Shown here: positions 4,731 through 36,007 of the stretch, in pieces
How positions within the stretch are numbered: the stretch's first letter is position 1
Layout of the letters: every line of letters begins with the position of its first letter
From: Anaerolineae bacterium CFX9
Lineage (GTDB): Bacteria; Chloroflexota; Anaerolineae; Aggregatilineales; Phototrophicaceae
Length of the DNA stretch: 41,065 nt
NCBI GenBank assembly: GCA_030263515.1
Contig: SZPD01000002.1
Coordinates: 1-41,065 of the forward strand
Direction of reading: 5' to 3'
The notes under the pieces: generated by a model
Seen by the model: only the letters and a program-made list of their open reading frames with translations
Told to the model about the DNA's origin: nothing
The model's database searches: none
Program-made: the position numbers and the translations under genes

Positions 4731-4790
4731 TAGCGTAACTCATCGTCTTGAAGGATAATCGTTCCATAGAGTCGGTGCAGTTGAACAAGT

Positions 4791-4819
4791 ATTCTAACAG
4801 GAGCGCTGCTGGCATACAA
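4791..4819 (-). promoter_or_regulatory. Possible mutS promoter
   Basis: On the minus strand there is TTGTAT (4819-4814), a 17-base spacer and TAGAAT (4796-4791). The -10 matches consensus at 5 of 6 positions and the -35 at only 3 of 6. Transcription would start near 4784, about 55 bases before the mutS ATG. Confidence 0.35.
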
Positions 4820-4826
4820 CCAGCGC
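4803..4826. repeat. Inverted repeat in the mutS/ROK divergent region
   Basis: GCGCTG (4803-4808) pairs with CAGCGC (4821-4826), and a competing CTGG/CCAG pair lies inside. The loop contains the proposed -35 of mutS, and the repeat ends 12 bases before the ROK start codon. It could be an operator or a 5'-UTR hairpin of the ROK gene; there is no direct evidence for either. Confidence 0.3.
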
Positions 4827-4838
4827 CGAACAAAAACC

Positions 4839-5816
4839 ATGAGTCTGATTATCGGTGTTGACCTCGGTGGAACGCGCCTGCGCGCTGCGCGTCTCGACCA
4901 TGATCTGGAAGTGCTGGAGCGCGAAGAAACGCTGACGATGGCGGATGAAGGTTTCGATGCCACGTTTGAACGTATCAAAACGATCATTCAGCACCGCATC
5001 CGCGAAGGCGAAATGATCACCGGGATCGGCGTCTCGATACCGGGCCCTACCAACCCGTTCTCCGGCGTGGTTGAGTTGGGGACTAACCTGAAGGGATGGG
5101 AAAATGTCCCGCTGATGCAGTTGTTGGGCGATCACTTCCACGCGCCAGTTTACATCGGCAACGACGCCAATGTGGCGGCATTAGCCGAAACCGTCAAGGG
5201 CGCGGCGCAGAACTACCGTCATGTGATCTTCATCACCGTCAGCACCGGGATCGGCGGCGGGATCATCGTGGATGGACGGCTGCTGCTGGGGAAAAGCGGG
5301 CTGGGCGCAGAAGTCGGGCATATGGTGATCGCCACGGAAGAAGGGCACATTTCGACGCTCGAAAAGGAGTCCGCCGGACCTTCGATGGCGCGGCGCGCCC
5401 GACGGCTGATCGAGGAGGGCGCGCGCTCGATGATCACCGATCTCGTCAGCGGCGATCTGGGAAAGATCAGCGGCAAGCACATCGGGCAGGCGGCGCAGGC
5501 AGGAGACAAACTGGCGCTGGAGATCGTGCAGCGTTCCGGGCGTATCCTGGGCTACGGCGTCACCAGCCTGCTGCACATCTTCAATCCAGAGATCATCGTC
5601 TTCGGCGGCGGCGTCAGCACGCTGGGAGATCTGCTCTTTAACCCCATGCGCGAGGCGATGGAAGCGACGGTGATCGACAATGCCTACATCCGGGATCTGA
5701 AGATCGCGCGTGCAGCGCTGGGCGATAATGTCAGCCTGGTGGGGGCTGGCGCGCTGGTGATCACCCACGGCGGCGTGGAGAAGATCAGCGCGATCCGCGC
5801 GCAGCTCGATGCCTGA
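4839..5816 (+). CDS. ROK-family sugar kinase (glucokinase-like) without the zinc-binding cysteine motif
   Basis: This 325-residue protein has the actin-like ATPase fold of ROK kinases, which phosphorylate glucose or related sugars. Visible motifs are the phosphate-1 loop GVDLGGTRLR (residues 6-15), GVSIPGP, the catalytic NDANVAALAE, STGIGGGIIVDG and EVGHMV. There is no DNA-binding domain, so it is a kinase and not a ROK repressor. The usual cluster CxCGxxGCxE after EVGH is absent: the protein runs from EVGHMVIATEEGH to STLEKESAGP with no cysteine there. Substrate is not predictable beyond a hexose. No clear Shine-Dalgarno lies just before the ATG. The histidine kinase gene follows after 70 bases. 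Confidence 0.9.
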   Translation: MSLIIGVDLGGTRLRAARLDHDLEVLEREETLTMADEGFDATFERIKTIIQHRIREGEMITGIGVSIPGPTNPFSGVVELGTNLKGWENVPLMQLLGDHFHAPVYIGNDANVAALAETVKGAAQNYRHVIFITVSTGIGGGIIVDGRLLLGKSGLGAEVGHMVIATEEGHISTLEKESAGPSMARRARRLIEEGARSMITDLVSGDLGKISGKHIGQAAQAGDKLALEIVQRSGRILGYGVTSLLHIFNPEIIVFGGGVSTLGDLLFNPMREAMEATVIDNAYIRDLKIARAALGDNVSLVGAGALVITHGGVEKISAIRAQLDA

Positions 5817-5874
5817 CAGCGCCCTGATTCGTCGAACATCATCCCTTCCGATATAAATCTAATGGGCGGCATGG

Positions 5875-5880
5875 TACACT
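5875..5880 (+). promoter_or_regulatory. Possible -10 of a leaderless histidine-kinase transcript
   Basis: TACACT ends exactly six bases before the ATG at 5887, and no Shine-Dalgarno is visible before that ATG. A -10 at this distance would place the transcript start at or next to the start codon. TATAAA (5852-5857) is an alternative -10 that would give a short leader. Confidence 0.35.
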
Positions 5881-5886
5881 TCGACC

Positions 5887-7464
5887 ATGCTCACACTTCT
5901 CGATTACCGTGTCCGCCAGCGCGATTTTCTGCTGGATATCCTCCGTGCGATCACGGCTCAGCTTGACCTTGCCGAGGTCCTGAAGCTGGTTCTGAACGCA
6001 TCCAATGTCATGCTTGGTGGGCAGGCAGGCATCATTGCCCTGCGCGACCCGCTGACAGAGGAATACCGGATTCGCGCCATTCTGGGTATCGAGACGAGCG
6101 CCGTCCCCGGCTTGCAGAAACAGGTGAATGATCTGATCGCGTCGTTCGACGAGACGCAGACTTACGACGATGTTGAGCACAAGCTGGACGCGATCGCTTC
6201 GGCGCTTGATCCCCGTTTTCGCAAGGCATTTGCCATTCCCCTGGCCATCGCGGGTGAGGCGCTTGGGGTACTGATCGTTTTCCGCACCTACCGCGGCAGT
6301 GCCACCATCGACGACATTCAGGTGCTTCAGAGTTTTGCCGATCAGGCATCGATCGCCGTGCAGAACGCGCAGCTCTACCAGCGCATCGACCAGGAACGGC
6401 GGAGGCTCGGCGCGATCCTTCAGCACAGCGCAGACGGGATCATGATCCTCGACGCGAACGAGAAAATCGTCGGCTTCAACCGCCAGCTTGAAAAGATGAC
6501 GGGCTGGACAGCCCAGGACGCCATCGGCCTGCATCAGGATGAAGTCATCACATGGAAACGGCTGGAAAAAGGCGATTTCAAGCTGGCAGTCGAGGATGGA
6601 TGGCCGTTTCGACGACCTGCCGACGCGCCGGAAGAAACTCTCTATGTGGAAGGCGACCTGCAGCGCCGGGATGGAATGTCGCTGAGCATCGGCATCCGCT
6701 ATGCGCCGCTGATCTCAGCCGAAGGTGAGCTGACCAATATCATCGCCAACATCCGCGATATCACCAATTTCCGGCAGGCTCAGGAAATGCAGAACGTCTT
6801 CATTTCGACGATTTCGCACGAGCTGAAGACGCCGGTCGCCCTGATCAAGGGTTACGCTGCCACACTACGGCGGGATGATGTAGAATTCGAAGCGCCGCTC
6901 ATCCGCGAGTACAGCGGCGTGATCGAGGAAGAAGCTGATCGCCTGACCGGGCTGATCGAAAATCTGCTCACGGCAAGCCGTCTGCAAGCGGAAAGAACCC
7001 TTCGGCTCAGCATGGGCGATATTCACCTGGATGAGCTTGCCGAACGCGCCGTCGAACGCTATCGCACCCAGTCGCAGATTCACCGTTTCAGCACGCACTT
7101 TCCGCCGCAGTTCCCGACGATCAGCGGCGATGAGGTCAAGCTGCGCCAGGTTCTGGACAATCTGCTGAGCAACGCCGTCAAATACTCGCCAGAAGGCGGA
7201 AAGATTGAAGTGGGGGGCAGCTTCACCGACACGCACGTCACGCTTTATGTTCGTGATGAAGGGGTCGGGATGAGCGAAGCTGACCGCGAGCATCTGTTTG
7301 AACGATTCTACCGAGTCGATAATGCCCTCAGCCGAAAGACGCAGGGAACCGGTCTGGGGCTGTATCTGTCAAAAGCGATCATCGAAGCGCACGGCGGAAC
7401 CCTGACCGTCGAGAGCGCCATCGGCAAGGGATCCACATTTTTCGTCACCCTGCCATTGAACTGA
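5887..7464 (+). CDS. Soluble sensor histidine kinase (GAF-PAS-HisKA-HATPase)
   Basis: This 525-residue kinase senses a signal and autophosphorylates on histidine. The order is GAF domain (about 15-165), PAS domain (about 175-290), dimerisation/phosphoacceptor domain with SHELKTPV (H311), and an ATPase domain with N-box DNLLSNAVKYSPEGG, G1 DEGVGMS, F-box FERFYRV and G2 GTGLGLYLSKAI. No membrane segment is seen, so it should act in the cytoplasm. No response regulator is adjacent; the only one in the window is 9 kb away on the other strand. The CpXC-domain gene follows after 16 bases and is likely cotranscribed. Confidence 0.93.
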   Translation: MLTLLDYRVRQRDFLLDILRAITAQLDLAEVLKLVLNASNVMLGGQAGIIALRDPLTEEYRIRAILGIETSAVPGLQKQVNDLIASFDETQTYDDVEHKLDAIASALDPRFRKAFAIPLAIAGEALGVLIVFRTYRGSATIDDIQVLQSFADQASIAVQNAQLYQRIDQERRRLGAILQHSADGIMILDANEKIVGFNRQLEKMTGWTAQDAIGLHQDEVITWKRLEKGDFKLAVEDGWPFRRPADAPEETLYVEGDLQRRDGMSLSIGIRYAPLISAEGELTNIIANIRDITNFRQAQEMQNVFISTISHELKTPVALIKGYAATLRRDDVEFEAPLIREYSGVIEEEADRLTGLIENLLTASRLQAERTLRLSMGDIHLDELAERAVERYRTQSQIHRFSTHFPPQFPTISGDEVKLRQVLDNLLSNAVKYSPEGGKIEVGGSFTDTHVTLYVRDEGVGMSEADREHLFERFYRVDNALSRKTQGTGLGLYLSKAIIEAHGGTLTVESAIGKGSTFFVTLPLN

Positions 7465-7480
7465 ACCTACCGGAGAAATC

Positions 7481-8833
7481 ATGCCCAAGCGAACTGTCAT
7501 CACCTGTCCAAACTGCCGCACACAGTCCCCATTCACTGTTGAAACCGTGATCGACGCATCCCGCGATCCGGACGCCAAGGTGCGGCTGCTCTCAGGACGA
7601 ATCAACACCTTCCGCTGCCCCGCCTGCGGCGCACCGATCAATCTCAGCGCGCCGATCCTCTATCATGACCCGGCGCACGAACTGCTGATGGCTTACGTGC
7701 CGATGGAGCTGAACCTGGGCAAGGATGGCGAACAGCGGATGCTGGGCGAACTGATGAACGAGCTGAACACGCTCATCCCGCGCGATCAGTTCAAGGGCTA
7801 TATGTTCCAGCCGAAGCAGACTCTCTCGATGCAGGGCCTGATCGACGCGGTGCTGCAAGCGGACGGCGTGACGCCGGAGATGATGGCGCAGCAGAAAGAG
7901 CGAGTTCGCCTTCTGGAAACACTGCTCGGCACACCGCCTGATCAGCTTGAAACCGCCATCCGGCAGGCGGACGCCCAGATCGATATGCAGTTCATGCAGA
8001 TGCTCTCACTGATGATCCAGCGCACGGCCGCCGAAGGTCAGCAGGAGATCGCCGAGCAGATGATGGATGTGCAGGAAATGCTGATGGCGCATTCCACCGT
8101 CGGCGCAGAACTGATCGAGCAGGCGAAGCGGCAGCGCGAAACTGTGCAGACCGTCGCCGATGAACTCAACGCCTACGGCGCTAACATGACGCGCGAGGAC
8201 TTCGTGAACGTCGTCGTGAGCTATGCAGACGACGATCAGAAACTTCAGGCGCTGGTGGGGCTGGCGCGCCCGGCGCTGGATTATCAGTTCTTTGAGACGC
8301 TCACCTCACGGATCGGCAGCGCCTCGGAGGGAGACCGCCCACGGCTGGAAAGCCTGCGGGATCGGCTGCTCCAACTGACCCAGATGGTCGATCAGCAGGC
8401 TCAGGCGGCGCTGGCAGAAGCCGCGGGCATCCTGCGGGCGCTCGTCAACAGCCCGGAGCAGGATGCGCTGATCCAGCAGTACCTGCCGGCATTTGACGAT
8501 ACGTTCATGGCTGTCCTTTCTGCCAATATTCAGGAAAGCGAACGCCGCGGCGACATTCAGATGTCTGCAAAGCTCAAGGAACTCTACAGCAAGATCATGA
8601 ATGCCCTGCGCGAGACGATGCAGCCTGAGCTGAAATTCATCAACGATCTGCTGGCACAGCCCTCTGCCGATGAGGCGCTGCGCATGATCCGCGCCGACGC
8701 GCCTCAGTATGGAGCCGGGCTGCTGGAGTGGTTCGACATGGTGCAGGATGCCATCGCCCAGCGGGGCGACCCTGCCATCGCCGAACGCCTGAATCTTCTG
8801 CGTCAGGAAGTTGAGGGCGTCCTCAATAACTGA
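7481..8833 (+). CDS. CpXC-domain protein of unknown function
   Basis: The 450-residue product starts with a zinc-ribbon-like CpXC module: CPNC at residues 9-12 and CPACG at 46-50. After it comes the family pattern of a beta-rich region (NLSAPILYHDPAHELLMAYVP). The remaining ~330 residues are long amphipathic helices rich in Q, E, L and A, probably coiled coil. No signal peptide or membrane segment is seen. The CpXC domain is a putative metal-binding module; the function is not known to me. A good GGAGA lies before the ATG. The gene is 16 bases behind the histidine kinase, which suggests that the two work together, and it ends at a strong terminator. Confidence 0.85.
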   Translation: MPKRTVITCPNCRTQSPFTVETVIDASRDPDAKVRLLSGRINTFRCPACGAPINLSAPILYHDPAHELLMAYVPMELNLGKDGEQRMLGELMNELNTLIPRDQFKGYMFQPKQTLSMQGLIDAVLQADGVTPEMMAQQKERVRLLETLLGTPPDQLETAIRQADAQIDMQFMQMLSLMIQRTAAEGQQEIAEQMMDVQEMLMAHSTVGAELIEQAKRQRETVQTVADELNAYGANMTREDFVNVVVSYADDDQKLQALVGLARPALDYQFFETLTSRIGSASEGDRPRLESLRDRLLQLTQMVDQQAQAALAEAAGILRALVNSPEQDALIQQYLPAFDDTFMAVLSANIQESERRGDIQMSAKLKELYSKIMNALRETMQPELKFINDLLAQPSADEALRMIRADAPQYGAGLLEWFDMVQDAIAQRGDPAIAERLNLLRQEVEGVLNN

Positions 8834-8840
8834 TCCCTGA

Positions 8841-8875
8841 AGACCCTTCCGAAAATTACGGAAGGGTCTTTTTCT
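8841..8875 (+). terminator. Intrinsic terminator after the kinase/CpXC operon
   Basis: A 12-bp stem is formed by AAGACCCTTCCG (8841-8852) and CGGAAGGGTCTT (8860-8871), with loop AAAATTA and a T-run (8870-8874). It lies 8 bases after the CpXC stop codon. Confidence 0.9.
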
Positions 8876-8973
8876 TCCCTCAACACCGTCATAAATCCCT
8901 ACGTATCCCCTACGCAGGATGGAAATTTCTGTGGGCATCCCTTAAACTTGCGCGCTAAATGACTCCCGTTGAT

Positions 8974-8993
8974 CTGTCAGTGTACTGTCAGTG
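8974..8993. repeat. Tandem direct repeat CTGTCAGTG upstream of a glycosidase-like gene
   Basis: Two perfect copies of CTGTCAGTG (8974-8982 and 8985-8993) are set 11 bases apart, about one helical turn, 55-74 bases upstream of the start codon at 9048. That layout fits an activator or repressor site. No clear -35/-10 pair was found in this 215-base gap, which otherwise holds only the terminator at 8841. Confidence 0.35.
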
Positions 8994-9047
8994 GGCAGTC
9001 GTACAGACATCATGTCATTGAAGATGTTCGCATGAGGGTATCCGCAT

Positions 9048-10475
9048 ATGCAAAGAAATAATCGCTTGCTCCCAATCTCGCTTGGCGCACTGACGACCGC
9101 GCTGTTCATCGGCGTGTTCGTGCTGTTTGCGCAGATTGGCACGCCGATGCGTGCCAGCGCGCAGGCTATGCCAACGCCGACGCCGACCGATCAGCTTTGG
9201 CTCGCCTTCTCCGCTGTACGTGATGCGCTTGAGGAGAAGTTCAACGTCGATCTGACGATCGTCGCTCGTTACAATTGGGAACAGATGGAATTCGTCGGCG
9301 CGGGAATTGACTCCTGCCTCGATCTGGAAGATCCGAACGCCTATCGCCCGCTCTATTTCGGGTGGCGCTTCGTGATCACCTCCCTGAGCGGACGTCAGTT
9401 TGAAGGTCGTTCGAGCTTTGACTCGACGATCGTGACGGCGTGCGACCGTGTGACTGAGAACGTCGCCCCCGCCCCGGCAAACCCGCAGACCGATCCGAAC
9501 CTGCCTGCCCCGGTTGCCGGCAGCGCCGCGATCAATGGCTTCCAGCTCGGCGGTCATGTCCTCCAGTTGAACGCCAACACCATCAGCCTGATGAATCGCG
9601 CCGGCATGACGTGGGTGAAGTATCAGGTTCGCTATACCCGTGGTCAGGATCCCAGCAGCGTTGCGGGTCTCGTCCAGGGAGCGCGTGCCGCCGGCTTCCG
9701 TGTCCTGCTCGGTGTCGTCGGCAGCCCAAGTGAACTTGCCTCTGGCGGCGCTGGGTACATTCAGGACTTCGCCAACTTCCTCGGCGGTGTTGCTGCGCTC
9801 GGCACAGACGCGATCGAAGTCTGGAATGAACCGAACATCGATCGTGAATGGCCCGCGGGTCAGATCAACGGCGCTAACTATACGCAGATGCTCGCCGCCG
9901 CGTTTAACGCGATCAAGTCACGCAGCAGCGGCACGCTGGTGATCAGCGGCGCTCCGGCTCCGACGGGCTTCTTCGGCGCAGCGGGCTGCACGGATCAGGG
10001 CTGCAACGACGATGTGTTTATGCAGCAGATGGCGCAGGCAGGCGCGGCGCAGTATATGGACTGTGTGGGTCTGCACTACAACGAAGGCATCATCCCGCCG
10101 AGCGCCGGCAGCGGCGACCCGCGCGGCGGCTATCCGACCTATTACTTTGGTTCGATGACCAACCGCGGCTACTCGCTCTTTGGCGGCAAGCCGGTCTGCT
10201 ACACCGAGCTGGGCTACCTGTCTCCGGAAGGCTTTGCTGATCCGCTGCCCGCTGGCTTCTCGTGGGCGGCGAACACCAGCGTTGCCGAGCATGCGGCATG
10301 GCTGGCTGAAGCTGCTTCCATCGCTGCCAACAGCGGCCGCGTCGCCATGATGATCGTGTGGAACGTGGACTTCCCGTATTACACGGGCACTGATCCGATG
10401 GCGGGCTACGCCATGTACCGCCCTGATGGTTCCTGCCCCGCCTGCGACACGCTGGGCGCAGTGATGCGCCGCTGA
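9048..10475 (+). CDS. Secreted clan GH-A-like glycoside hydrolase
   Basis: The 475-residue protein begins with a basic stretch and a hydrophobic signal or anchor segment (about residues 14-32), followed by a small linker with PTPTPT. Residues ~40-135 are a separate globular part, and from about 155 on there is a (beta/alpha)8-type barrel. The retaining-glycosidase acid/base motif appears as VWNEPN (E261) and the candidate nucleophile as CYTELGY (E387), as expected in clan GH-A (GH5/GH39/GH30-like). Substrate is unknown; the family and an exported location suggest an outside polysaccharide. GAGGG lies nine bases before the ATG. The gene ends at its own terminator and is followed by a second glycosidase-like gene. 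Confidence 0.8.
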   Translation: MQRNNRLLPISLGALTTALFIGVFVLFAQIGTPMRASAQAMPTPTPTDQLWLAFSAVRDALEEKFNVDLTIVARYNWEQMEFVGAGIDSCLDLEDPNAYRPLYFGWRFVITSLSGRQFEGRSSFDSTIVTACDRVTENVAPAPANPQTDPNLPAPVAGSAAINGFQLGGHVLQLNANTISLMNRAGMTWVKYQVRYTRGQDPSSVAGLVQGARAAGFRVLLGVVGSPSELASGGAGYIQDFANFLGGVAALGTDAIEVWNEPNIDREWPAGQINGANYTQMLAAAFNAIKSRSSGTLVISGAPAPTGFFGAAGCTDQGCNDDVFMQQMAQAGAAQYMDCVGLHYNEGIIPPSAGSGDPRGGYPTYYFGSMTNRGYSLFGGKPVCYTELGYLSPEGFADPLPAGFSWAANTSVAEHAAWLAEAASIAANSGRVAMMIVWNVDFPYYTGTDPMAGYAMYRPDGSCPACDTLGAVMRR

Positions 10476-10521
10476 AACCGCGAGACGCTTGCGACCTTCC
10501 GCAACATGCGGAATAATCATC

Positions 10522-10555
10522 ATCCGGTTGGGTGTCTTCCCAGCCGGATTTTTTT
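10522..10555 (+). terminator. Intrinsic terminator after the first glycosidase-like gene
   Basis: ATCCGGTTGGG (10522-10532) pairs with CCCAGCCGGAT (10539-10549) through 11 base pairs including one G-T, and is followed by seven T residues (10549-10555). It lies ahead of the next gene and inside any start upstream of 10590, which supports 10590 as the real start of that gene. Confidence 0.85.
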
Positions 10556-10589
10556 ATATTGTCCATGCTGGTCATCTGAAAACGGAATT

Positions 10590-12008
10590 ATGCGCCGGAT
10601 AGTTATCTTCATCTTCCCCATCCTGCTTTTGTCGGGGGCGCCGCTGCACGCCCAGTCAGTCTCGGTCCCCAATGGCGATATTGACCGAACTTTTGGCGTC
10701 GTCGAAGCCTACTATCGTCCTGACGATGCTGTTGAACTCGGCGCGACCTGGGATCGGATGATCTTCTACTGGTACGATTTCCAGCCCAGCCATCCGCTTC
10801 AATGGCGCACCGGGCACATGGATCCGGCGATCTTCGAAGCGGCAGCCGCTGGCAACCGCACTATCGCAGGCATTGTCAAAGGCACGCCGGAATGGGCATC
10901 GCACGAGCGGCTTCCCGGCGGCGTTCCTTTCGGGCTGCACCTGCCAATCGACGACCCGCGCAACTTCTGGGCGGCGTATCTGCGCCGGCTGGTCGCAGAA
11001 TATCAGCCGCTGGGCGTGCGTGACTGGATCATCTGGAATGAGCCGGATATCCGCCCCGGCGAAGGTGGCGTCCCGGAATTTCTGGGCGACGTGGAGGATT
11101 TCTATCACATCGTGCGGGTCGCTTACCTGGCGATCAAGTCAGTCGATCCGGACGCGCATGTCAACCTGCCGGGCATGCTGTGGTGGGGAGATCGCAATTT
11201 CCGCCGCGAACCCTACCTGGGGCGGCTGCTGCGCTATATCTACAACGACCCCCAGGCCGCCGCCAATAACTACTACTTTGATGGCATCGGCATCCACCAG
11301 TTCTTCAATACAGGCAACGTCTGGAACGTCTTCATGCACAACATCCAGATTTTGCGCTCATACGGGCTGGGCAACAAGGAAATCTGGTTTGACGAATATA
11401 ACGCCAGCCCGCGCCGAGACCCGGAAGCGCGTATCCGCGCCCCACTCCAGGCAAATCTCCAGCAGCAGGCGGATTACATCGTCCAGGCGAGCGCGACCGC
11501 CCTGGCAGCCGGCGCGACACGTATTGCCGTCTACCGCCTCTACGATAACCATTTCGTACCCGGACTGAGCGAGCCGTGGGGGTTGATCCGCGGCGATGGA
11601 ACGCGCCGTCCCGCCTTCTATGCCTATCAGCAGGTGATTCAGCGTTTTCCCGGCGCGCGCGCCATCCAGCGCTATCACATCCCGGAAGGCACGCTGATCA
11701 CCTTCCTGTTTGAAGATCGCACGCTCTACGTGATGTGGAGCAACACTTTCCGCGGCGGTGAATTTCTGATCAACGCCAACCGGCTGGAAGGTGAGTTCAT
11801 CGTCACGAACGCACAGGCAGAGGAAACTGCGGTGTCCGTCGTCGTCGAAGGCGGCGCACCCATCCTGCGGATACCCGCGCCGGGCGCTGAGCGCATCGAT
11901 CTGCCGAGTGTCGTGATTGCCGGGGAAGTGCGGCTGGTGGAACTGCCGGGCGGACCCCGCACCGTGTTCTATCGCACAGAGCTGGGGGCCGTCACTCAGA
12001 TTCGCTGA
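10590..12008 (+). CDS. Secreted GH39-like glycosidase family protein, paralogue of the protein at 21714-23129
   Basis: The start at 10590 is chosen because it opens directly into a signal peptide (MRRIVIFIFPILLLSG, cleavage near HAQS) and because the ATG at 10506 lies upstream of a terminator. The mature ~450 residues have a clan GH-A barrel: IIWNEPDI with the acid/base candidate E151 and WFDEYNAS with the nucleophile candidate E269. A beta-rich C-terminal part follows. The sequence is clearly related to the recJ-linked protein: both share FGV(V/I)EA, AAANxYYFD, (E/Q)IW and NAS blocks, and the glutamate spacing is 118 versus 117 residues. Substrate is unknown. Its last 17 bases overlap the convergent nucleotidyltransferase-like gene. 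Confidence 0.82.
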   Translation: MRRIVIFIFPILLLSGAPLHAQSVSVPNGDIDRTFGVVEAYYRPDDAVELGATWDRMIFYWYDFQPSHPLQWRTGHMDPAIFEAAAAGNRTIAGIVKGTPEWASHERLPGGVPFGLHLPIDDPRNFWAAYLRRLVAEYQPLGVRDWIIWNEPDIRPGEGGVPEFLGDVEDFYHIVRVAYLAIKSVDPDAHVNLPGMLWWGDRNFRREPYLGRLLRYIYNDPQAAANNYYFDGIGIHQFFNTGNVWNVFMHNIQILRSYGLGNKEIWFDEYNASPRRDPEARIRAPLQANLQQQADYIVQASATALAAGATRIAVYRLYDNHFVPGLSEPWGLIRGDGTRRPAFYAYQQVIQRFPGARAIQRYHIPEGTLITFLFEDRTLYVMWSNTFRGGEFLINANRLEGEFIVTNAQAEETAVSVVVEGGAPILRIPAPGAERIDLPSVVIAGEVRLVELPGGPRTVFYRTELGAVTQIR

Positions 12009-12948
12009 CAGAGACGTACTCGCCGATTCTCTCTGCCCGGTGAGAATCAGCAGAGACGCCAAACTCACGGAGGCGCTCGGCGTAGCGGCGCAGAACCGGA
12101 TGCCCGTGATCATTGAAGTGTCCCTTCACATGTTCCGGGTCGATCACCGCTGCGTGATGCTTTTTCTGCATCTCGCGGTCAAAGCGCGCGCGCTTGCGGC
12201 GGTATTCCCACGCCTCAAAGCGGGTTCCCAGCGGGGTGAGCAGAAGCCGTTCCAACCCCGCCTTGAACCAGCGCCATCCTCTCCGCGGCTGATACTCTGC
12301 TGGCTGGTAAAAGGCATCGACAGCATTCGCCATGTGATCGAACACCCAGCCATTACAATCGCGCATCTGCCGGTAGATTCTGCCCCCATACACCGGAACC
12401 ATCTGTGCGACTTCGTGCGCCATGAAGATATCGTGCCGCTGCTGAAACAGCGCCGTCTCCGACAGAACGTAGTTGGGGCACAGCGTTACGCCGCGCAGCC
12501 GCGCCAGCCGGACGAGCAGAACGGCAAACGCCCGCGCCGTCCAGACGCGCCCTGAAGCCGTGACCAGCACATAATCGAGATCGTCATCATCATCGTCAGG
12601 ATTGCGAACCGAGAGCGCGCCCGTGATCGCCACCATCCGCACAAACGGCAGCCGCGCCAGCCACACCCCATAACGAAGCGCCAGCGGGAACAGGCGGGAA
12701 GCGGCAGCCTCGCGCCGCTGTCGCAGCCCGACGATCTCACTGCGATCGTGGCAGAGGACGTACTCGCCTTCCAGGCGGAACAGCCGGCTGAGCCGCGCTG
12801 AGCCGCTGAGCGCGGCGGCGATCTCATCACAGGTATAATGCTGGCGTGAGATCAGGAAGTGATGAATTTCCGGGATCGTCAGCGGGAAATTGAAGACATC
12901 GGCATACACGACAGTGCGGATGATCGCTTCCTCGATGCCGTTCAACAA
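11992..12948 (-). CDS. Nucleotidyltransferase-like protein with N-terminal winged helix
   Basis: The 318-residue product starts with a helix-rich part resembling a winged helix (about residues 5-60, VVYADVFNFPLTIPEIHHFL). Next comes a nucleotidyltransferase-like core: TGALSVRNPDDDDDDLDYV gives the G-A/S turn and D-x-D metal-binding pattern of the pol-beta superfamily. The C-terminal ~100 residues are rich in Arg, His and aromatics. The substrate is unknown; modification of a nucleotide, sugar or protein is possible. The start is TTG at 12948, backed by AGGAG seven bases before it, and no nearby ATG competes. It is the last gene of a five-gene minus-strand run, 21 bases behind the PPC/LamG-like gene. 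Confidence 0.65.
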   Translation of the reverse strand: MLNGIEEAIIRTVVYADVFNFPLTIPEIHHFLISRQHYTCDEIAAALSGSARLSRLFRLEGEYVLCHDRSEIVGLRQRREAAASRLFPLALRYGVWLARLPFVRMVAITGALSVRNPDDDDDDLDYVLVTASGRVWTARAFAVLLVRLARLRGVTLCPNYVLSETALFQQRHDIFMAHEVAQMVPVYGGRIYRQMRDCNGWVFDHMANAVDAFYQPAEYQPRRGWRWFKAGLERLLLTPLGTRFEAWEYRRKRARFDREMQKKHHAAVIDPEHVKGHFNDHGHPVLRRYAERLREFGVSADSHRAERIGEYVSVSESE

Positions 12949-12969
12949 TCCCTGTCTCCTGATTGCGAC

Positions 12970-14496
12970 TCAGCTCCAGTTCCACACCCAAAGATTGCGC
13001 AGGGAGCAACTGGTATCGACCCCTTCAAAATTGACGACGGCCGCGCCGATCTGCCCGGAAACAGCCTCCGCTTCGGCAGACCCGATCAACCGCCCGTCAA
13101 CGTAGAAGTACAGTGTATGCTGAGTTGCAATAACGAGCAAATGATGCTCACTGGCGCGCTCTGGCGGCGCGCCTTCGAAGAAGATACCCGGCGCGAAGTC
13201 TTCTCCACTGCGCTGGCTCAGACCTGCGCCGCCCGCCGAGTCAAGAAACGCCAGCCAGTAATCGGTTTCGCTGGCAAAGCGGAACACCAGCCCACAGCCG
13301 CCCACGCCGGTAGTTCCCTGATTGATGGTTACATAAGCCCCCAGAACGAATGTGGCATACCGCACCCCGCCGCCAAGCATCAGCCGGTTGACGCCGGGGC
13401 GCGCATACTGCACAGAACTTTCCGGAACGGTCAGCACGATCGAACCATCGGCTGACGCCAGGTGGCGGCGCACCAGCGCAGACGCTACCGTCTGCGCATC
13501 GCCCACCACAATGCGATCAGGCAGCACCACTTCGCCATCCACGGTGTAAGGTGTGGTGACCAGCAGATCGGCAAACTGCGCGGTCGTCGCGCTTTCCAGC
13601 GAGTTTGTCGCTGCGGCGAACACGCCGATCCGCACCGGGTCAGTCAGCGGATTACTGCTCACCGAGCCGACAAATCCATAGTTGTAGTAAATATCAAAAC
13701 CCCCGTTTCTGGAGAGCGCGCTGAGGGTGAAGGTGGTTTCGCCGGGGCGGATGACCGGGTGGGTATTCCAGTCTCGCAGCACCGTTTCCTGATCGCCATT
13801 GCGCACCGTGAAACGCCATGAGCCTGTCTGGTTGACCCAGACGGCGTAATAATTTTCAGCATCAGAAGCCAGCGCCAGCCCTGCCGCCCAGGCGTTGGCC
13901 GTGTTATCCACATCCACAATGCGTACCGAGGCGAAATAGTCGGCAAAGGCAGCCGTGTCCGGGTGATAAGCCATCGCCGAGGCGCGGACGCCAGAGACCG
14001 AGAGCGTGATCTGATTCTCGCCGGATTCCACCTCTGCCTGAGCGCCGCCAAACGGAACCGCTTCCCACCCAGATGCAGGCGCGATCGTCTCGTCAGCCTG
14101 AGGCTGTGCAAAACCGCGCGTCATCGTGAGCGTATACGCCCCCACCCCACTGCCGTAGGCGCTGACAGTGGCCGTGTAAGTATCCGTCCGCGGCATCGTC
14201 AGCGCTTCGATCAGCGAATCCACACTTTCCGGATAGGCATAATCGTCGTTGAACAGGACGACGCGCCCGTCGCTGTCGCTGATCGTCAGCACAGGATCGA
14301 GCGCTGTGCGCGATTCCACCCTGAACGAGAGCAGCTCGCTGGCGATAGCGCGAAACGTCCACGTCTGCGGCTGACCCGTGCTGAGACTGCCTTCGACCGT
14401 CACACCCGGAGTCAGTTCACCGGCTGTCTGTGCTGCCACCGGCAAAACCCCGACAGGGATCAGAATGAGCAGCACGAGAAAAATCAATCTGTACAT
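12970..14496 (-). CDS. Exported protein with PPC domain and two LamG/DUF1080-like sandwiches
   Basis: The start at 14496 is chosen because TGAGG precedes it by a few bases and the product then opens with a signal peptide (MYRLIFLVLLILIPVGVLP, cut near VAAQT). Of ~508 residues, about 25-130 form a PPC-like domain (DPVLTISDSDGRVVLFNDD, then GAYTLTM). Two later beta-sandwich modules each contain the concanavalin-like pattern of 'residue in the ligand path plus IGVFA or IGAAVVNFEG'. Such modules bind or cleave glycans or mediate contacts outside the cell. No catalytic motif is visible, so a binding role is more likely. The gene lies 38 bases after the two-helix membrane protein gene in the same operon. 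Confidence 0.7.
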   Translation of the reverse strand: MYRLIFLVLLILIPVGVLPVAAQTAGELTPGVTVEGSLSTGQPQTWTFRAIASELLSFRVESRTALDPVLTISDSDGRVVLFNDDYAYPESVDSLIEALTMPRTDTYTATVSAYGSGVGAYTLTMTRGFAQPQADETIAPASGWEAVPFGGAQAEVESGENQITLSVSGVRASAMAYHPDTAAFADYFASVRIVDVDNTANAWAAGLALASDAENYYAVWVNQTGSWRFTVRNGDQETVLRDWNTHPVIRPGETTFTLSALSRNGGFDIYYNYGFVGSVSSNPLTDPVRIGVFAAATNSLESATTAQFADLLVTTPYTVDGEVVLPDRIVVGDAQTVASALVRRHLASADGSIVLTVPESSVQYARPGVNRLMLGGGVRYATFVLGAYVTINQGTTGVGGCGLVFRFASETDYWLAFLDSAGGAGLSQRSGEDFAPGIFFEGAPPERASEHHLLVIATQHTLYFYVDGRLIGSAEAEAVSGQIGAAVVNFEGVDTSCSLRNLWVWNWS

Positions 14497-14534
14497 GGTG
14501 TTCCTCAGGTGAAGCGTGGACTGCCAGAGCGGCA

Positions 14535-15239
14535 TCAGCGCAGCGGCATCCACTCGGAAAACTGCGCTTCCAGACGCGCAAAATAGGCGACGAAATCGTC
14601 CGCGCTCATCTCAGCCCCATTCATCCAGCGATAATCCTCCGCTTCGCGCAGGCGGCGCTGCTCACCTGCCGCGCGCAGTTCCTCACGCAGGGCATTATTC
14701 GCCTGATTTTTCTGCTGTTCCTTGCGAGACTGGATCGGCTTGAAGCGCCCGGCAGCTTCAAAGGCTGACGTCTGCGCGGGCGACATGAACGTATAGGCGG
14801 TCAGGTGGCGCTCATCTTCGCGCTCCAGCGCGCACGCGAACATCGAGTACCCTTTAGGCACACGAGAACGGCGGTTGATCTTGAAAGACCACAAAATCGC
14901 GTTCACGCCATCCTCACGGGTGACCTTCAATTCCTGGGTTCCATTTTTGATGATCTGTACCGAGTGCTCATCGATGACGACCATGCGCCCGCTTTTCCAG
15001 ACCCGCTTGAGCTGGCGTTCGCCCACCATAGTGACGACGGTTGCCAGCAGAATGCCGACCAGCACGCTGAGCAGATTGATACCCGCGTCGCTGATCAGCG
15101 CGTTGGTCAGGAAAAAACCCACGAAAAACATGACGATGAACAGCCCCATCGTCGCCATGCGAATGCCGCCATGCTCACTATCGACATGATATTCGGTCGT
15201 GCCGGACGAAACTGAAATCTGATCCTCTGCCAGCGCCAT
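14535..15239 (-). CDS. Two-helix membrane protein of unknown function
   Basis: I do not recognise this 234-residue protein. Residues ~1-27 are polar, two hydrophobic segments follow (about 30-50 and 55-75), and the rest is soluble. The soluble part begins with a beta-rich stretch (RMVVIDEHSVQIIKNGTQELKV) reminiscent of a PH-like fold and continues as a charged, probably coiled-coil region rich in Q, R, E and A (about 165-205). GAGG lies six bases before the ATG. It lies 11 bases behind the methyltransferase gene and upstream of an exported-protein gene, so a role in the same envelope pathway is plausible but unproven. Confidence 0.6.
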   Translation of the reverse strand: MALAEDQISVSSGTTEYHVDSEHGGIRMATMGLFIVMFFVGFFLTNALISDAGINLLSVLVGILLATVVTMVGERQLKRVWKSGRMVVIDEHSVQIIKNGTQELKVTREDGVNAILWSFKINRRSRVPKGYSMFACALEREDERHLTAYTFMSPAQTSAFEAAGRFKPIQSRKEQQKNQANNALREELRAAGEQRRLREAEDYRWMNGAEMSADDFVAYFARLEAQFSEWMPLR

Positions 15240-15250
15240 ACCCTGCCTCG

Positions 15251-16015
15251 CTATGCACCACTCTGCTTTCGGGCGAAGAAGATCACGCGCTCTGTATGAG
15301 AAGTCGCGGGATCGAACACCTCGAAAGCCGGATTGACCAGCGCCGCCACAGAAAAACCGACTCGCTTCAGCAGCGCCGCCACCGTCTGAACACTGTAGCC
15401 GCGCGAGGTGAGGACGATTTCTTCACGCCGCCACCACGACTCCGTGTGGCTGAAGATCAGCATTCGCTTCACCAGCGCCAGCCGCTCATAATCGAAATTC
15501 TGCTCCAGTACGATATTGATATCGTTGTCTTCATAGAAGATGCCCCCCCTGCCAGACTTCATGATCAGGGCTTCCAGGGACATCATATCGAAGACGAACA
15601 GCTTGTCCTCTTCGAGCGCGCGATAGGCCTGCGCGAACACCGCCTCGATCTCGGAGAGCTTGCCCAGTTCATTGATCACATCGATCGCCAGCACCATATC
15701 GAACGTGAGCAGATCCGTATCGATGACGCGGATATCGCCCTCCCGCCACGTCAGGCTCAGCCCGCGCGTATCAATGCTGCCGCGTGCCTGAAGCAGCATG
15801 TCCGGCGAGCTGTCGATGGCGACCACGCTCACGCCGTGATTGGCGAGCCAGCGCGCGCTGGCCCCCGTCCCGCAGCCCAGATCAAGGGCGCGCCGTCCGC
15901 TCCAGTCCAGCCTTGACTGGGCAAACTGAAAAATGCGCGGCGTGACGCTCTGCGCAAAATTCGCCATGCCAATGCGCTCGTAGATCGGTGCGAGCAGCGC
16001 GTAGTGATCGGTCAT
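15251..16015 (-). CDS. Class I SAM-dependent methyltransferase
   Basis: The 254-residue protein has the Rossmann-like fold of methyltransferases that use S-adenosylmethionine. Motif I is LDLGCGTGASARWLA (about residues 44-58), followed by the acidic end of beta-2 (VVAIDSSPDML) and a motif II-like EGDIRV plus DMVLAIDVINELG. The substrate cannot be told: small-molecule and sugar methyltransferases look alike here. It starts two bases after the stop codon of the DM13 gene, and AGAGGG lies a few bases before its ATG. It is probably cotranscribed with its neighbours. Confidence 0.88.
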   Translation of the reverse strand: MTDHYALLAPIYERIGMANFAQSVTPRIFQFAQSRLDWSGRRALDLGCGTGASARWLANHGVSVVAIDSSPDMLLQARGSIDTRGLSLTWREGDIRVIDTDLLTFDMVLAIDVINELGKLSEIEAVFAQAYRALEEDKLFVFDMMSLEALIMKSGRGGIFYEDNDINIVLEQNFDYERLALVKRMLIFSHTESWWRREEIVLTSRGYSVQTVAALLKRVGFSVAALVNPAFEVFDPATSHTERVIFFARKQSGA

Positions 16016-16017
16016 CC

Positions 16018-16761
16018 TTACCCTCTCAGAAAGAGCGGCGCATATCCGTAAACCATGTCCAGCGAGGGGCTGTACAGCACCACAAACCGGTACTGACTGA
16101 GATCTTCCGCTGCCGGGATGGTATAGTTTTGCCCGCCCACCGTGCCGATGATGGGGCCAAGATCAAGAGTGGGTATCGTCCCCGCAGGATCTGCATCCGT
16201 ACCCAGCATATCATCCACCGAATCTGCCGGCGTCGGCGTCGCGCCAAGCGGAGCCGGGCGCTCGTAACCTGTCACCAGCGGATCAGCAGACCCGCTGAGA
16301 AGCACACGCATATCAGGCGCAGGCAGGACGCTGAAATTATCAAAACGCATCAGCCGGGAACCATCCCCCTGCTGATAGAGGACAACATCCCCCTGCGCCC
16401 AGCGGATGACATCGACGCGCTGGAAGATGCCCGTGCCGACGGTCACCGGGTTGCTCAGCGCGGGCGGGTCCTGCTGGTTCTGTGGAGATGGGATCGATGG
16501 AGAGATCGCCGCGCGCACCATCGCCGCCGCGTTGGCGGGCGACTCAGCGGCAATGGCGAGATAGGCATCACGCTGTTCCTGAGGCAGCATCTGGAAAGCC
16601 GCCATCTGTTCCGCAGTCAGCCCCGGCAGCAGCAGCGTCTGACCGACAGCGCCGGGATCCGGGCGCAGCGCGGTATCAACAACGGGAACCCAATAGGGAA
16701 CGGTATATGTCAGGGCGATCAGTAAGGCGCCGATGAAGACTACAAAAATGCGCAGCCGCAT
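16018..16761 (-). CDS. Membrane-anchored DM13-domain protein lacking the domain's cysteine
   Basis: The 247-residue product has one N-terminal hydrophobic segment (about residues 4-24), a linker rich in Ala, Pro and Gln, and from about residue 105 a DM13-like domain. The domain features are the initial GTGIFQRVDVIRWAQGDV, the core LMRFDNFSVLPAPDMRVLLS, the later LDLGPIIGTVGGQNY, then IPAAEDLSQYRFVVLYSPS and MVYGYAPL. DM13 domains are proposed to act in electron transfer or redox at the cell surface and usually carry a cysteine in the V-x-x-W-C block; here the block reads VVLYSPS, without Cys. It is the first gene of the five-gene run, with GAGGG ahead of its ATG. Confidence 0.75.
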   Translation of the reverse strand: MRLRIFVVFIGALLIALTYTVPYWVPVVDTALRPDPGAVGQTLLLPGLTAEQMAAFQMLPQEQRDAYLAIAAESPANAAAMVRAAISPSIPSPQNQQDPPALSNPVTVGTGIFQRVDVIRWAQGDVVLYQQGDGSRLMRFDNFSVLPAPDMRVLLSGSADPLVTGYERPAPLGATPTPADSVDDMLGTDADPAGTIPTLDLGPIIGTVGGQNYTIPAAEDLSQYRFVVLYSPSLDMVYGYAPLFLRG

Positions 16762-16800: not shown

Positions 16801-16851
16801 CAAAACCCCCCTGCTCACCAGACTGCAAGGTGATGGGCGGCAGCTCAGGGG
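16801..16851 (-). terminator. Possible terminator after the response regulator
   Basis: On the minus strand CCCCTG pairs with CAGGGG (plus 16846-16851 and 16808-16813), with an inner TCACC/GGTGA pair, followed by TTTTG (plus 16801-16805). The arms are short and interrupted. This 83-base gap also has to contain any promoter for the DM13 operon, which I could not identify. Confidence 0.35.
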
Positions 16852-17531
16852 CGGCGAATGGGCATGGCGTACCCTTGCCCGGCAACAGTGACGATATAGG
16901 TTGGGTGGCGGGGGTTTTCCTCCAGCTTCTGGCGAAGCCGGGAAATATTGACGCGCAGGACGGAATAATCGCCCTCGTACTCATCGCCCCACACGGTATG
17001 GATCAGCTCTTCATGAGTGATCGTCTTGCCCGGCGTCTTCATCAGTCCGAGAAGGATGCCATACTCGATCGGTGTCAGGTGGAGCTTCTTGCCGCGAATA
17101 TAGGCCTGGCGGCGCGTGATATCCAGTTCCAGATGCCGCACGACGATTCGTGTATCAGGCGGCGGAGTCAGGTCAACACGGCGCAGCAGCGCACCTACAC
17201 GAGCCACCAGTTCCTCGCCGGCAAAGGGTTTGGCGACGAAATCGTCCGCCCCCTGCTCAAAGGCATAGATCTTTTCGCTGCCGCCGGTAAACCCGCTCAT
17301 CACGATCAGCGGCAGGGATGACTGCTGACGAATCTGCTTGAGAACATCAATGCCATCCATATCCGGCAGCCGCATATCCAGCAGCACCAGATCTGGCTGG
17401 CTGGACTGGATGCGCTCCAGCGCGGTCTCGCCATCGGCAACCGTGATAGGCGTATACCCTGCGGTTTCCAGAAGCGCACTGACCACTTCGGCAGTGTCTT
17501 CATCGTCTTCCACGATCAGGATATTGCGCAT
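16845..17531 (-). CDS. OmpR/PhoB-type response regulator (KdpE-like)
   Basis: With the start at 17531 (MRNILIVEDDED) the product has 228 residues: an N-terminal receiver domain with the acidic pair DD, phosphoacceptor LLDM (D52) and KPF, and a C-terminal winged helix that ends with VNISRLRQKLEE and YIVTVAGQGYAM. It is a DNA-binding transcription regulator activated by phosphorylation. An ATG ten codons upstream (17561) also has a GGGG stretch before it, but the receiver fold normally starts where I place it; AAGGA precedes 17531 at a short distance. No histidine kinase lies beside it. It follows the P450 gene by about 150 bases. Confidence 0.92.
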   Translation of the reverse strand: MRNILIVEDDEDTAEVVSALLETAGYTPITVADGETALERIQSSQPDLVLLDMRLPDMDGIDVLKQIRQQSSLPLIVMSGFTGGSEKIYAFEQGADDFVAKPFAGEELVARVGALLRRVDLTPPPDTRIVVRHLELDITRRQAYIRGKKLHLTPIEYGILLGLMKTPGKTITHEELIHTVWGDEYEGDYSVLRVNISRLRQKLEENPRHPTYIVTVAGQGYAMPIRRP

Positions 17532-17582
17532 GTGTCCTTCGCTGGGCGCACTGGTGAGCATATCACCCCTATGACGCTCGTT

Positions 17583-20917: not shown

Positions 20918-21717
20918 AGCACCAGATTGGGGATCACGATGATGCGGATGAGCGGGTGAGACATATTCTTCGCGGTGAAGCGAATGATCTCATACGCCAG
21001 CCCTGCGATCACGGGGATCAGCACCACGCGCGACAGCAGCAGCAGCAGGAACGGCGGTCTGCCCAGCAGCGAAAAGACCATCACGCTCACAAACGCGACC
21101 ATCAGCAGGAAGGCAGTGCCGCAGCGGGGATGCTCGATCGGGTACGTCGCCACCACTTCCGGCGTGAGTTCCGCGCCCGCCTCATAAGCGTTGATCGTCT
21201 TGTGCTCAGCGCCATGATACCCGAACAGGCGCTTGACATCCGGCAGCAGGCTGATCAGCGCCATATAGCCGATGATCAGTGTGAGCTGGATGACGCCTTC
21301 GATCAGGTTGACCAGAAATGGCGCTTCGTGCAGATCGAGCAGGTTCTGAATGCCGGTGGACGCGGCCGTCGGCAGCAGGAAGAACAGTCCGATGCCGAAC
21401 GCCAGCGAGATGGCGAGCGTGCCATAGCCCACAGGCCCGTTGAAGTTGACCTTCTCGTCCTCGCCGAGCGCCACATCTGCCGACCACATCAGCGCCTTGG
21501 TCCCCAAACCCAGCGCATCCCACAGCCCGACCAGCCCGCGCACAAACGGCGTTCGGCTGATCCAGCCTCGATAGAGCGTGGCGTTCAGCGGCTGCTCGTG
21601 GATGACGATCTCGCCCTGCGGATTACGAACCGCAATAGCGGCTTTGTGTGCGCCGCGCATCATCACGCCCTCGATCACCGCCTGACCGCCGTAGGAAAAC
21701 TGCTTTGGTGTGCTCAT
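20773..21717 (-). CDS. DUF1385 family membrane protein (YqhQ-like)
   Basis: The 314-residue protein begins with the family signature YGGQAVIEGVMMRG and later has YHGAEHKTINAYE and HPRCGTAFLL. Four or five hydrophobic segments are seen (about 100-125, 140-165 and 205-250). The conserved His, Glu and Cys residues have led to the idea of a metal-dependent membrane enzyme, but the function is not established. The last ~20 residues are a Pro/Ala/Glu tail that lies in the overlap with the convergent membrane protein. Its ATG overlaps the stop of the glycosidase-like gene (ATGA), so translation is probably coupled. Confidence 0.93.
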   Translation of the reverse strand: MSTPKQFSYGGQAVIEGVMMRGAHKAAIAVRNPQGEIVIHEQPLNATLYRGWISRTPFVRGLVGLWDALGLGTKALMWSADVALGEDEKVNFNGPVGYGTLAISLAFGIGLFFLLPTAASTGIQNLLDLHEAPFLVNLIEGVIQLTLIIGYMALISLLPDVKRLFGYHGAEHKTINAYEAGAELTPEVVATYPIEHPRCGTAFLLMVAFVSVMVFSLLGRPPFLLLLLSRVVLIPVIAGLAYEIIRFTAKNMSHPLIRIIVIPNLVLQHLTTRTPDLSMIEVAIEAFKRVLVSETATPEEETASAPVAEPAAGD

Positions 21718-23129
21718 AAACCTTCTGCCTCGTCAAAATTCAGCGCAGTGCTGCCTGCTGAGGAAATGACCTCAACCGCAAATGACGCTTCGGGCTGCAT
21801 CAGGATGACCGGCGACCCGCCCACCGCGCACCCATCCCGCGGATTGCAGCGCGCGCCGGGCAGCGCCAGCGTATATGCATCATTCCATGGTGCAATGTTC
21901 ATCATAGTACCATACAGATCGGCGATCTGTGCCCCCTGATCCGTGGGCGAAATGCGGATTTGCCCGCCCGCCGCAGTGCGCGCCCAGGCGACGATCATCG
22001 CCATGCCGTCCGCTCGCTGCAAACGGACGACATCCACCGTATCTGTCTGCGCGTAATCCGCGTCGATCACGCCGTTAAACTCACGGATCACAAACCGCCA
22101 GGTATCAAAAGCAGGGCGGCGGGTTTCATCGACACGGATCAGCCCGAATGCTTCTGCGCCGGGGGGCAAATTCCAGTCATAGAACTTGTAAACACCGATG
22201 CTGTCCACGCCTGCCGCCAGGCCGAGCGCCGCCGCATGGATCAGGAAAGCCGCCTGCTGCTCAAGCGTCACCTGCCAGTTAGGGCGGGTCACCGGCCAGG
22301 CAGGATCGAGATTTGGCGAGGCGTTCGTCTCAGTGATCCAGATCTGCTTATCAGGGATACCATACTGTTCCAGCAGCGCCTGCATCTCGCGCACGATAGT
22401 GTAGACCGTCTCGCTGCGAAAATAGATATGCAGCGTCAGCACATCAAAGTAATAGCCGTTGGCAGCAGCTTCCGGATCAGCCGAGAGGTGTTCCAGCAGG
22501 CGATCAACGTACAGGCGCTGCCGCGCGTTGACATCATGCCAATAGGTCGTGCCCGCCATATGGATGATGGCGTCGGGGTTGCCCTGCCGCGCCGCCCGCC
22601 AGGCGACTTCGAGCAGGCGGGCATAATCGGCAAGTGTGCCCTCAAATTCGTAGCCGTAGGTATCTTCGGAGATATCCGGCTCATTCCAGATGATGAAGCG
22701 GCGAACCCCGCGCTCAGCGTAGTATTCGGCGGCGCGGCGGATGAAGCGCGCCCAGAGATTGCCGGGATCATCGACTTCGAGATATAACCCGCGCGGAACG
22801 CCGATCAGCGGCGTCCCATCGGTTGCCCAGGCAGGCGTCGCCTTGACGATGGCGACGACTTCCCGATCGCAAGCCTGCGCCTCCCGCAGCCAGCGTTCAT
22901 CCACATTGAGCGTATTCCAGTCGTCAATTCCGGTAGGCTGGTGCTGCGCCCAGTCAAAGATGATCCGTTCCCAGCCCGCGCCCAGCTCACACGCCGCTTC
23001 CGGCAGCCAGAACGCCTCGATCACGCCGAAGATGTTCTCCCCTTGCCGCGCAGAGTCAGGCTGAGCGCTGACCGTGAGCGCGGGGCAAAGCAGTACCAGA
23101 ATCAGCAGCAGAATGCGCTTCATACTCAT
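21714..23129 (-). CDS. Secreted GH39-like glycosidase family protein, coupled to recJ
   Basis: The start at 23129 forms ATGA with the recJ stop; a second ATG two codons later is an alternative with better spacing to GAAGGA. The product (about 471 residues) has a signal peptide (MKRILLLILVLLCPALTVSA) and a clan GH-A-type barrel with IIWNEPDI (E150, acid/base candidate) and WITETNAS (E267, nucleophile candidate), then a beta-rich C-terminal part. It is a paralogue of the protein at 10590-12008. Its ATGA overlap with DUF1385 downstream and recJ upstream is an unusual setting for a secreted enzyme. Substrate is unknown. Confidence 0.8.
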   Translation of the reverse strand: MSMKRILLLILVLLCPALTVSAQPDSARQGENIFGVIEAFWLPEAACELGAGWERIIFDWAQHQPTGIDDWNTLNVDERWLREAQACDREVVAIVKATPAWATDGTPLIGVPRGLYLEVDDPGNLWARFIRRAAEYYAERGVRRFIIWNEPDISEDTYGYEFEGTLADYARLLEVAWRAARQGNPDAIIHMAGTTYWHDVNARQRLYVDRLLEHLSADPEAAANGYYFDVLTLHIYFRSETVYTIVREMQALLEQYGIPDKQIWITETNASPNLDPAWPVTRPNWQVTLEQQAAFLIHAAALGLAAGVDSIGVYKFYDWNLPPGAEAFGLIRVDETRRPAFDTWRFVIREFNGVIDADYAQTDTVDVVRLQRADGMAMIVAWARTAAGGQIRISPTDQGAQIADLYGTMMNIAPWNDAYTLALPGARCNPRDGCAVGGSPVILMQPEASFAVEVISSAGSTALNFDEAEGL

Positions 23130-32674: not shown

Positions 32675-32678
32675 GGTG

Positions 32679-33665: not shown

Positions 33666-33679
33666 CGATTTCACTTTCG

Positions 33680-34093: not shown

Positions 34094-34140
34094 GGCAAAC
34101 TCCCTTCGCGAACATCAGCCGGCGGTCGATTCAACAGCGC

Positions 34141-35946: not shown

Positions 35947-35992
35947 CCTTGCCTCCATAGTTCAGGGGCGATGGGGCAGGAGTTGCTCAGGG

Positions 35993-36007
35993 CGTGTTTA
36001 AAACACG
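35993..36007. repeat. Perfect 15-base palindrome before infB
   Basis: CGTGTTTAAAACACG: perfect 7-base arms around a single central base, 47-61 bases upstream of the infB start codon. It looks like an operator and not like a hairpin terminator, as no T-run follows. Confidence 0.35.

Follow-up and report, generated by a model that had tools for sequence, protein, structure and literature searches.

Gene organization of the operon

We analysed a stretch of 41,065 nucleotides (the window) from contig SZPD01000002.1 of Anaerolineae bacterium CFX9 (GenBank assembly GCA_030263515.1), which belongs to the order Aggregatilineales. The window carries six genes coding for an OmpR-type response regulator (RR), a DM13-domain protein, a methyltransferase (MT), a predicted membrane protein (MEM), a protein with PPC-like and LamG-like domains (PPC) and a protein with a predicted nucleotidyltransferase fold (NT), as listed in Table 1. 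A first-pass annotation had described the last five as a run on one strand, and the map of open reading frames (ORFs) in the window agrees with it: all five ORFs lie on the minus strand and are transcribed in the order DM13, MT, MEM, PPC, NT, with intergenic gaps of 2, 11, 38 and 21 nt. The RR gene, located 83 nt upstream on the same strand, had been overlooked, and the joint system of five genes that the annotation proposed is replaced by a unit of six headed by a regulator. That the operon is real and conserved, with RR as its first gene, is well supported. The six genes are probably transcribed as one unit.

Five genes in a row on one strand are nothing unusual in themselves; the conservation of this one across strongly diverged genomes exceeds chance. 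The PPC gene was read from an ATG at 14496, and an alternative GTG at 14553 would run into MEM. The NT gene starts with TTG, which is consistent with the start positions of NT homologues. Overlaps between PPC and MEM occurred in 35 of 38 loci because the longest ORF had been taken and the signal-peptide start lies further inside; we dropped them as evidence of translational coupling between the two genes. A scan for promoters and terminators gave values close to expectation and was uninformative.

Table 1. Genes of the operon and the associated histidine kinase gene in the window
Gene	Position	Strand	Product and basis
RR	16845..17561	minus	OmpR-type response regulator, receiver and winged helix; heads the conserved operon
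DM13-domain protein	16018..16761	minus	N-terminal membrane anchor, no cysteine; PF10517 match, alignment
MT	15251..16015	minus	Class I SAM-dependent methyltransferase; PF13649 match
MEM	14535..15239	minus	Membrane protein, cytoplasmic PH-like domain with inserted transmembrane hairpin and conserved C-terminal helices; predicted
PPC	12970..14496	minus	Exported protein, PPC-like and LamG-like domains, two invariant cysteines
NT	11992..12948	minus	Winged helix and nucleotidyltransferase-fold protein; AlphaFold2, invariant residues
HK	5887..7464	plus	Soluble histidine kinase with GAF and PAS domains, from the convergent gene group; may phosphorylate RR

Receivers encoded beside MEM

RR matched Response_reg (101 bits; cut-off 30.2) and Trans_reg_C (85.5 bits; cut-off 26.2) in Pfam, and judged by these domains it is an OmpR/PhoB-type response regulator. 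The families of the order were labelled f1 (that of the window) to f8, and a receiver was taken as directly upstream of MEM when it was encoded on the same strand less than 300 nt away. Outside f1, a stand-alone receiver was located directly upstream of MEM in 27 of the 50 genomes holding MEM, in four families (5/7 genomes of f2, 14/17 of f3, 1/1 of f5 and 7/8 of f8, against 0/4 of f4, 0/2 of f6 and 0/11 of f7); among the 23 genomes without such a receiver, one had just 7 nt of contig upstream of MEM. Of 64 f1 genomes, 29 encode a regulator of about 235 residues at most 2.5 kb upstream of MEM.

In a control on 20 loci outside f1, a receiver was encoded directly upstream of 10 of the 17 called MEM genes and of none of 316 other genes. 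In 20 loci centred on other genes the count was 0 of 341 genes, the receiver profile having been built, for this control as for the linkage counts, from receivers of the same loci. All four stand-alone receivers that were scanned with Pfam, from those upstream of MEM in f2, f3, f5 and f8, matched Response_reg and carried no output domain. The receiver before MEM in f8 has a long proline- and serine-rich tail, again with no output domain (L145:6239-7015 (-), L146:8405-9148 (+)).

The f1 regulators and the stand-alone receivers had a median identity of 26-30% and formed separate clades in the tree, on which ground we rejected orthology between them. All 27 stand-alone receivers retain the catalytic residues; among 29 f1 regulators, 26 or 27 do so, depending on the residue. 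The position of the phospho-acceptor Asp was Asn in 2 of these 29, and others were without the Lys or an acidic residue; from such substitutions, some f1 regulators may have turned phosphorylation-independent.

A profile of the stand-alone type (A7) was used on 12 genomes, where three MEM-adjacent receivers, all of them included in the profile, scored 205-219 bits and other matches at most 128. In 20 more genomes outside the profile, seven MEM-adjacent receivers scored 150-202 bits and every other match at most 126. By this gap in score, the stand-alone type occurs only beside MEM in the genomes searched; none above background was found in the f1 genomes searched by profile.

HK contains HisKA, HATPase_c, GAF and PAS domains according to Pfam. 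At E <1e-100 it was present in 25 loci, and 22 of these encode it on the opposite strand. Stand-alone receivers are common, but few have a known target; those that lack an output domain act through binding a partner. As two receiver lineages are encoded beside one and the same membrane protein, we argue for a functional link between receiver and MEM.

Predicted structure of MEM

No Pfam or NCBIfam model matched MEM above its cut-off. The NCBIfam scan was made for the five proteins DM13 to NT, and none of them reached a cut-off among the matches listed (25 of 48 for MT). Neither YcxB (PF14317) nor PF08000 was matched by 39 MEM members in Pfam, among the matches listed (25 of 31 families). The operon and MEM were likewise unnamed in the titles and abstract openings found by limited searching of the literature.

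An AlphaFold2 model of MEM from 39 sequences (pLDDT 91.4, pTM 0.84) consists of one strand, a hairpin of two long helices (24-48 and 52-80), six further strands, a helical insertion and a final helix. A PH-like domain is a seven-stranded sandwich capped by a C-terminal helix, and both the strands and the final helix are present in the model. The best Foldseek matches were PTB and PH-like domains, with E values of 0.02 or worse, and nearly all of 50 VIA rows were PH, PTB or FERM-F3 folds, most of them aligned over 79-103 residues, with Z values up to 6.7, which is under the safe level of 8 for that tool. A search of PDB sequences with the MEM profile gave chance-level matches only.

The loop of the hairpin has no Lys or Arg, and several are found in the stretch after the second helix. 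According to the positive-inside rule, the folded domain of MEM would be in the cytoplasm. The C-terminal motif E..R...G.E was kept in 35 of 36 members. The first-pass annotation had supposed that the membrane protein exposes a substrate; going by the model, MEM resembles instead a cytoplasmic PH-like adaptor linked to receivers.

Passages of a report on archaeal CheF (PMC9126983) describe PH-like domains and a helical tail that binds activated CheY. By analogy, MEM may work like CheF, as a PH-like protein with a helical tail and the proposed partner of a stand-alone receiver. Unlike CheF, which has two PH-like domains, MEM is predicted to have one, split by a transmembrane hairpin and placed in the membrane, and no motility genes were seen beside it. 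CheF was not found in the search of PDB sequences; it was also absent from the structural rows of Foldseek and VIA, an absence that excludes nothing. None of the tests made identifies MEM as a CheF. Other small proteins share single features with MEM: the YcxB proteins have a hairpin followed by a small domain, as read from three of their sequences, and the bacterial PH proteins of PF08000 are small proteins with a PH-like fold. Membership of MEM in YcxB was rejected, since hhalign against the three YcxB proteins gave a probability of 0.8%.

Distribution and modularity of the operon

We searched 121 genomes of the Aggregatilineales, and genes on the same strand less than 1000 nt apart were joined into pairs by their coordinates. 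The best row or rows per genome were kept for PPC, DM13 and MT, and weaker paralogue rows were dropped. In this census the gaps next to DM13 appear too long because its matches are often partial, and MEM-PPC pairs of f3 were missed because the best PPC match is the second PPC copy. A second census covered 42 loci from named records; these loci overlap the 121 genomes (L168 and G088 are an example), so the two censuses are not independent. The gene maps behind the comparison of loci, the NT loci and the receiver control came from a basic caller that takes the longest ORF, and some genes were lost or misnamed in them. The relatives found in named records are metagenome-assembled genomes, by title mostly Aggregatilineales, Anaerolineae or Chloroflexi.

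Matches were found to MEM in 114 of the 121 genomes, to NT in 46, to PPC in 119 (many of them weak paralogues), to DM13 in 114 (with paralogues) and to MT in 76 (at 1e-12). Of 400 genomes drawn from the phylum, four had MEM, two of them belonging to the family of the window and the other two to a single further family of the class; MEM is nearly confined to the order. The adjacent same-strand pairs were MEM>PPC in 68 genomes, DM13>MT in 32, MT>MEM in 30, PPC>NT in 29 and DM13>MEM in 5. All five genes stood in order in 11 genomes: G109 and, with the window counted, all but one of the 11 genomes from the genus of the window; and the five families were together in 11 of the 42 loci. The first-pass annotation had held a joint system unlikely if the five families were found together in no other genome, and they do recur.

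The order RR-DM13-MT-MEM-PPC-NT was present in 9 of the 42 loci, RR-MT-MEM-PPC-NT in 15 and other subsets in 18, some of which were cut by contig ends. RR stood within the MEM run, at its head, in 33 loci, one of them with a weak match (L206). It also had the highest median identity across the loci (64%), followed by NT (54%), MT (41%), PPC (39%), MEM (38%) and DM13 (37%). In f3, a pair of PPC genes follows MEM in all six loci read, in one of which (L130) MEM was placed by its match only. DM13-MT formed a separate pair in 12 of 18 f3 genomes, and PPC-NT in 6 of 10 f8 genomes; MEM and PPC, too, occur as a pair by themselves. The unit is thus a set of modules, merged in f1, and for each of DM13, MT and NT there are many operons that lack it, which does not agree with one fixed pathway.

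PPC, DM13 and MT proteins

The PPC protein matched LamG_3 at 26.4 bits (cut-off 27.6) and PPC at 13.5 bits (cut-off 25.9); both are below the cut-off, so the two names given by the first-pass annotation hold only as "like". A relative from f3 was above both cut-offs (34.1 and 26.8 bits). The N-terminal stretch resembles a signal peptide, and the cysteines C401 and C497 were invariant in the alignment.

The names DM13 and methyltransferase stood without such a reserve. The DM13 protein matched PF10517 at 30.3 bits (cut-off 25). In the alignment, like other DM13 proteins it shares the domain, and it differs from some relatives by a serine in place of the cysteine that they keep in the last strand; it has no cysteine at all. 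A redox function is ascribed to the conserved DM13 cysteine, and a role of the window protein in redox, or in electron transfer as the Pfam name has it, is therefore unlikely; it is DM13-like rather than a redox DM13 protein. In a part of a paper on insect Knickkopf (PMC11354708), DM13 domains are called domains of unknown function.

MT matched Methyltransf_25 (PF13649) at 63.3 bits (cut-off 27), and Methyltransf_11, 12, 31 and 23 were also above their cut-offs. A defence system was considered and rejected, as PADLOC gave generic methyltransferase matches only, to mad2 and DrmMII.

NT protein

The fifth protein of the run had no Pfam family. Its AlphaFold2 model from 28 sequences (pLDDT 89.5) shows a winged helix followed by a nucleotidyltransferase fold. 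Compared with ANT(4''), NT gave a Z of 7.6 over 112 residues with 9-11% identity, below the tool's safe Z of 8; compared with MntA, it gave a Foldseek probability of 0.96 and an E value of 0.11. Search of PDB sequences with the NT profile returned chance-level matches only. G110, D123 and D125, which form a G-x(n)-D-x-D motif, were invariant in the 28 sequences, as were C157-P158-N159 and, further along, E179. By predicted fold and motif, NT qualifies as a Pol-beta-like nucleotidyltransferase, and it may act as an enzyme. Like nucleotidyltransferases of the MNT/ANT type, it shares the fold and the invariant G...D-x-D motif; it differs from them by the N-terminal winged helix, the lack of a Pfam family and the invariant CPN, which lies near the place where the third catalytic carboxylate of the superfamily would be expected. 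A toxin-antitoxin reading, suggested by the MntA-like fold, was put aside because the gene maps gave no reason for it; a HEPN partner was not searched for.

Across the phylum, NT was found in 29 of the 400 drawn genomes, two of the matches being weak. Outside the window, NT loci were resolved in 27 cases, 14 of which come from the window's order; in 14 of the 27, a B12-radical SAM gene was encoded on the same strand no more than three genes after NT. In two NT clusters (L242 and L251), genes for a Wzy_C (O-antigen ligase-like) protein, a polysaccharide flippase, a methyltransferase and a glycosyltransferase were identified by cluster, and with Pfam for L242 and one protein of L251. The neighbours of these relatives tie NT to surface polysaccharide, though not yet the operon.

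Proposed role of the operon and alternative explanations

We propose, as a tentative reading that falls somewhat short of probable, that this is a vertically inherited, receiver-controlled envelope operon of the Aggregatilineales which acts through MEM on a surface glycan module. A histidine kinase, perhaps the convergent HK, would phosphorylate the receiver encoded at the operon head: a stand-alone receiver in other families, and in that of the window an OmpR-type regulator with a probable further role in controlling the operon. The state of the receiver would then pass to MEM, whose PH-like domain and C-terminal helices may form a membrane-bound docking adaptor, as CheF does for CheY in archaea. 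MEM in turn would set the activity of the surface module, in which the exported PPC/LamG-like and DM13-like proteins would bind a surface glycan, while MT and NT would modify glycan precursors inside the cell. The surface end of the system is best sought in the exported lectin-like proteins encoded just downstream of MEM. The kinase partner, the contact between receiver and MEM and the glycan substrate are what we infer here. A wider proposal, which we hold to be rather doubtful, is that the new MEM family takes the state of response regulators directly at the membrane, as a CheF-like output outside motility, and that in one lineage a DNA-binding regulator took the place of the original stand-alone receiver and had a surface-glycan operon built up around it.

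Several observations weigh against receiver control through MEM. MEM has no adjacent receiver in f4, f6 and f7 (17 genomes), and 35 of the 64 f1 genomes had no regulator within 2.5 kb upstream, two of the 64 being too short in contig to tell; a linked receiver is therefore not a requirement for MEM to work. Members from f7 keep the C-terminal motif as well, so that it does not track the receiver, and the structural scores of MEM stay under the safe level. The polysaccharide genes adjoin the relatives of NT, not the operon of the window. The neighbours CpXC, ROK and MutS are syntenic in f1 too, so synteny within f1 alone is weak evidence. Together with GHa and HK, these convergent genes are kept beside the run in f1, as they would be if all the genes had separate functions and stayed together only through rare rearrangement of the chromosome region in the family, an explanation that the coming and going of DM13, MT and NT also fits. 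It does not account for the sub-pairs that survive in f3 and f8 where the rest has moved, nor for receivers before MEM in four other families when none of 316 neighbouring genes has one, and we consider it unlikely.

The envelope theme of the first-pass annotation is still plausible, given the signal peptide of PPC and the N-terminal anchor of DM13, both read from sequence, and the polysaccharide genes near NT relatives. In a stricter form, MT and NT would alter one envelope substrate presented by the membrane and exported proteins, and the regulator would switch transcription only. Such a pathway suits a set in which exported proteins are mixed with two group-transfer-like enzymes, in which relatives of NT are found in polysaccharide clusters with a methyltransferase and in which the f1 receiver carries a DNA-binding domain. 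We nevertheless think it fairly unlikely, as many operons that retain MEM-PPC lack MT and many lack NT, and the MEM-adjacent receivers scanned elsewhere (4/4) have no DNA-binding domain, so that plain transcriptional control fails to explain the receiver-MEM linkage. MEM might also be an envelope-stress protein whose PH-like domain oligomerises at the membrane, with the receivers answering the same stress without touching it. Parts of a paper on the bacterial PH proteins of PF08000 (PMC2817789) describe rings and a link to envelope stress, and one protein of this type (3dcx) was among the structural rows of MEM; this explanation leaves aside the receiver without output domain encoded directly before MEM, and we find it quite improbable.

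With a receiver gene directly before it, and one or the other of two receiver lineages according to the family, MEM is a concrete candidate target for stand-alone receivers. The linkage also offers an initial hypothesis on the function of a protein that 114 of 121 genomes carry, in an order whose known members are mostly uncultured.

Neighbouring genes

Next upstream of RR is a cytochrome P450 gene (17681-19009 (-)), which had a counterpart in 0 of 60 other loci compared. For a six-gene run further upstream, at 31784-38255 (-) (clusters c52-c57), L124 (G071) is the only other locus with this gene order ahead of the operon. The convergent group at 2106-10475 codes for MutS, a ROK kinase, the GAF-PAS histidine kinase, a CpXC protein and a glycosidase-like exported protein, and is found beside the operon in many f1 loci. 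Paralogous exported glycosidase-like proteins are encoded at 10506-12008 (+) and 21714-23195 (-), the second of which was above the cut-off of Glyco_hydro_cc in Pfam. The first of these genes and NT overlap by 17 nt in a tail-to-tail arrangement. In two f2 loci (L134 and L135), the gene that follows MEM belongs to the family of this first protein.

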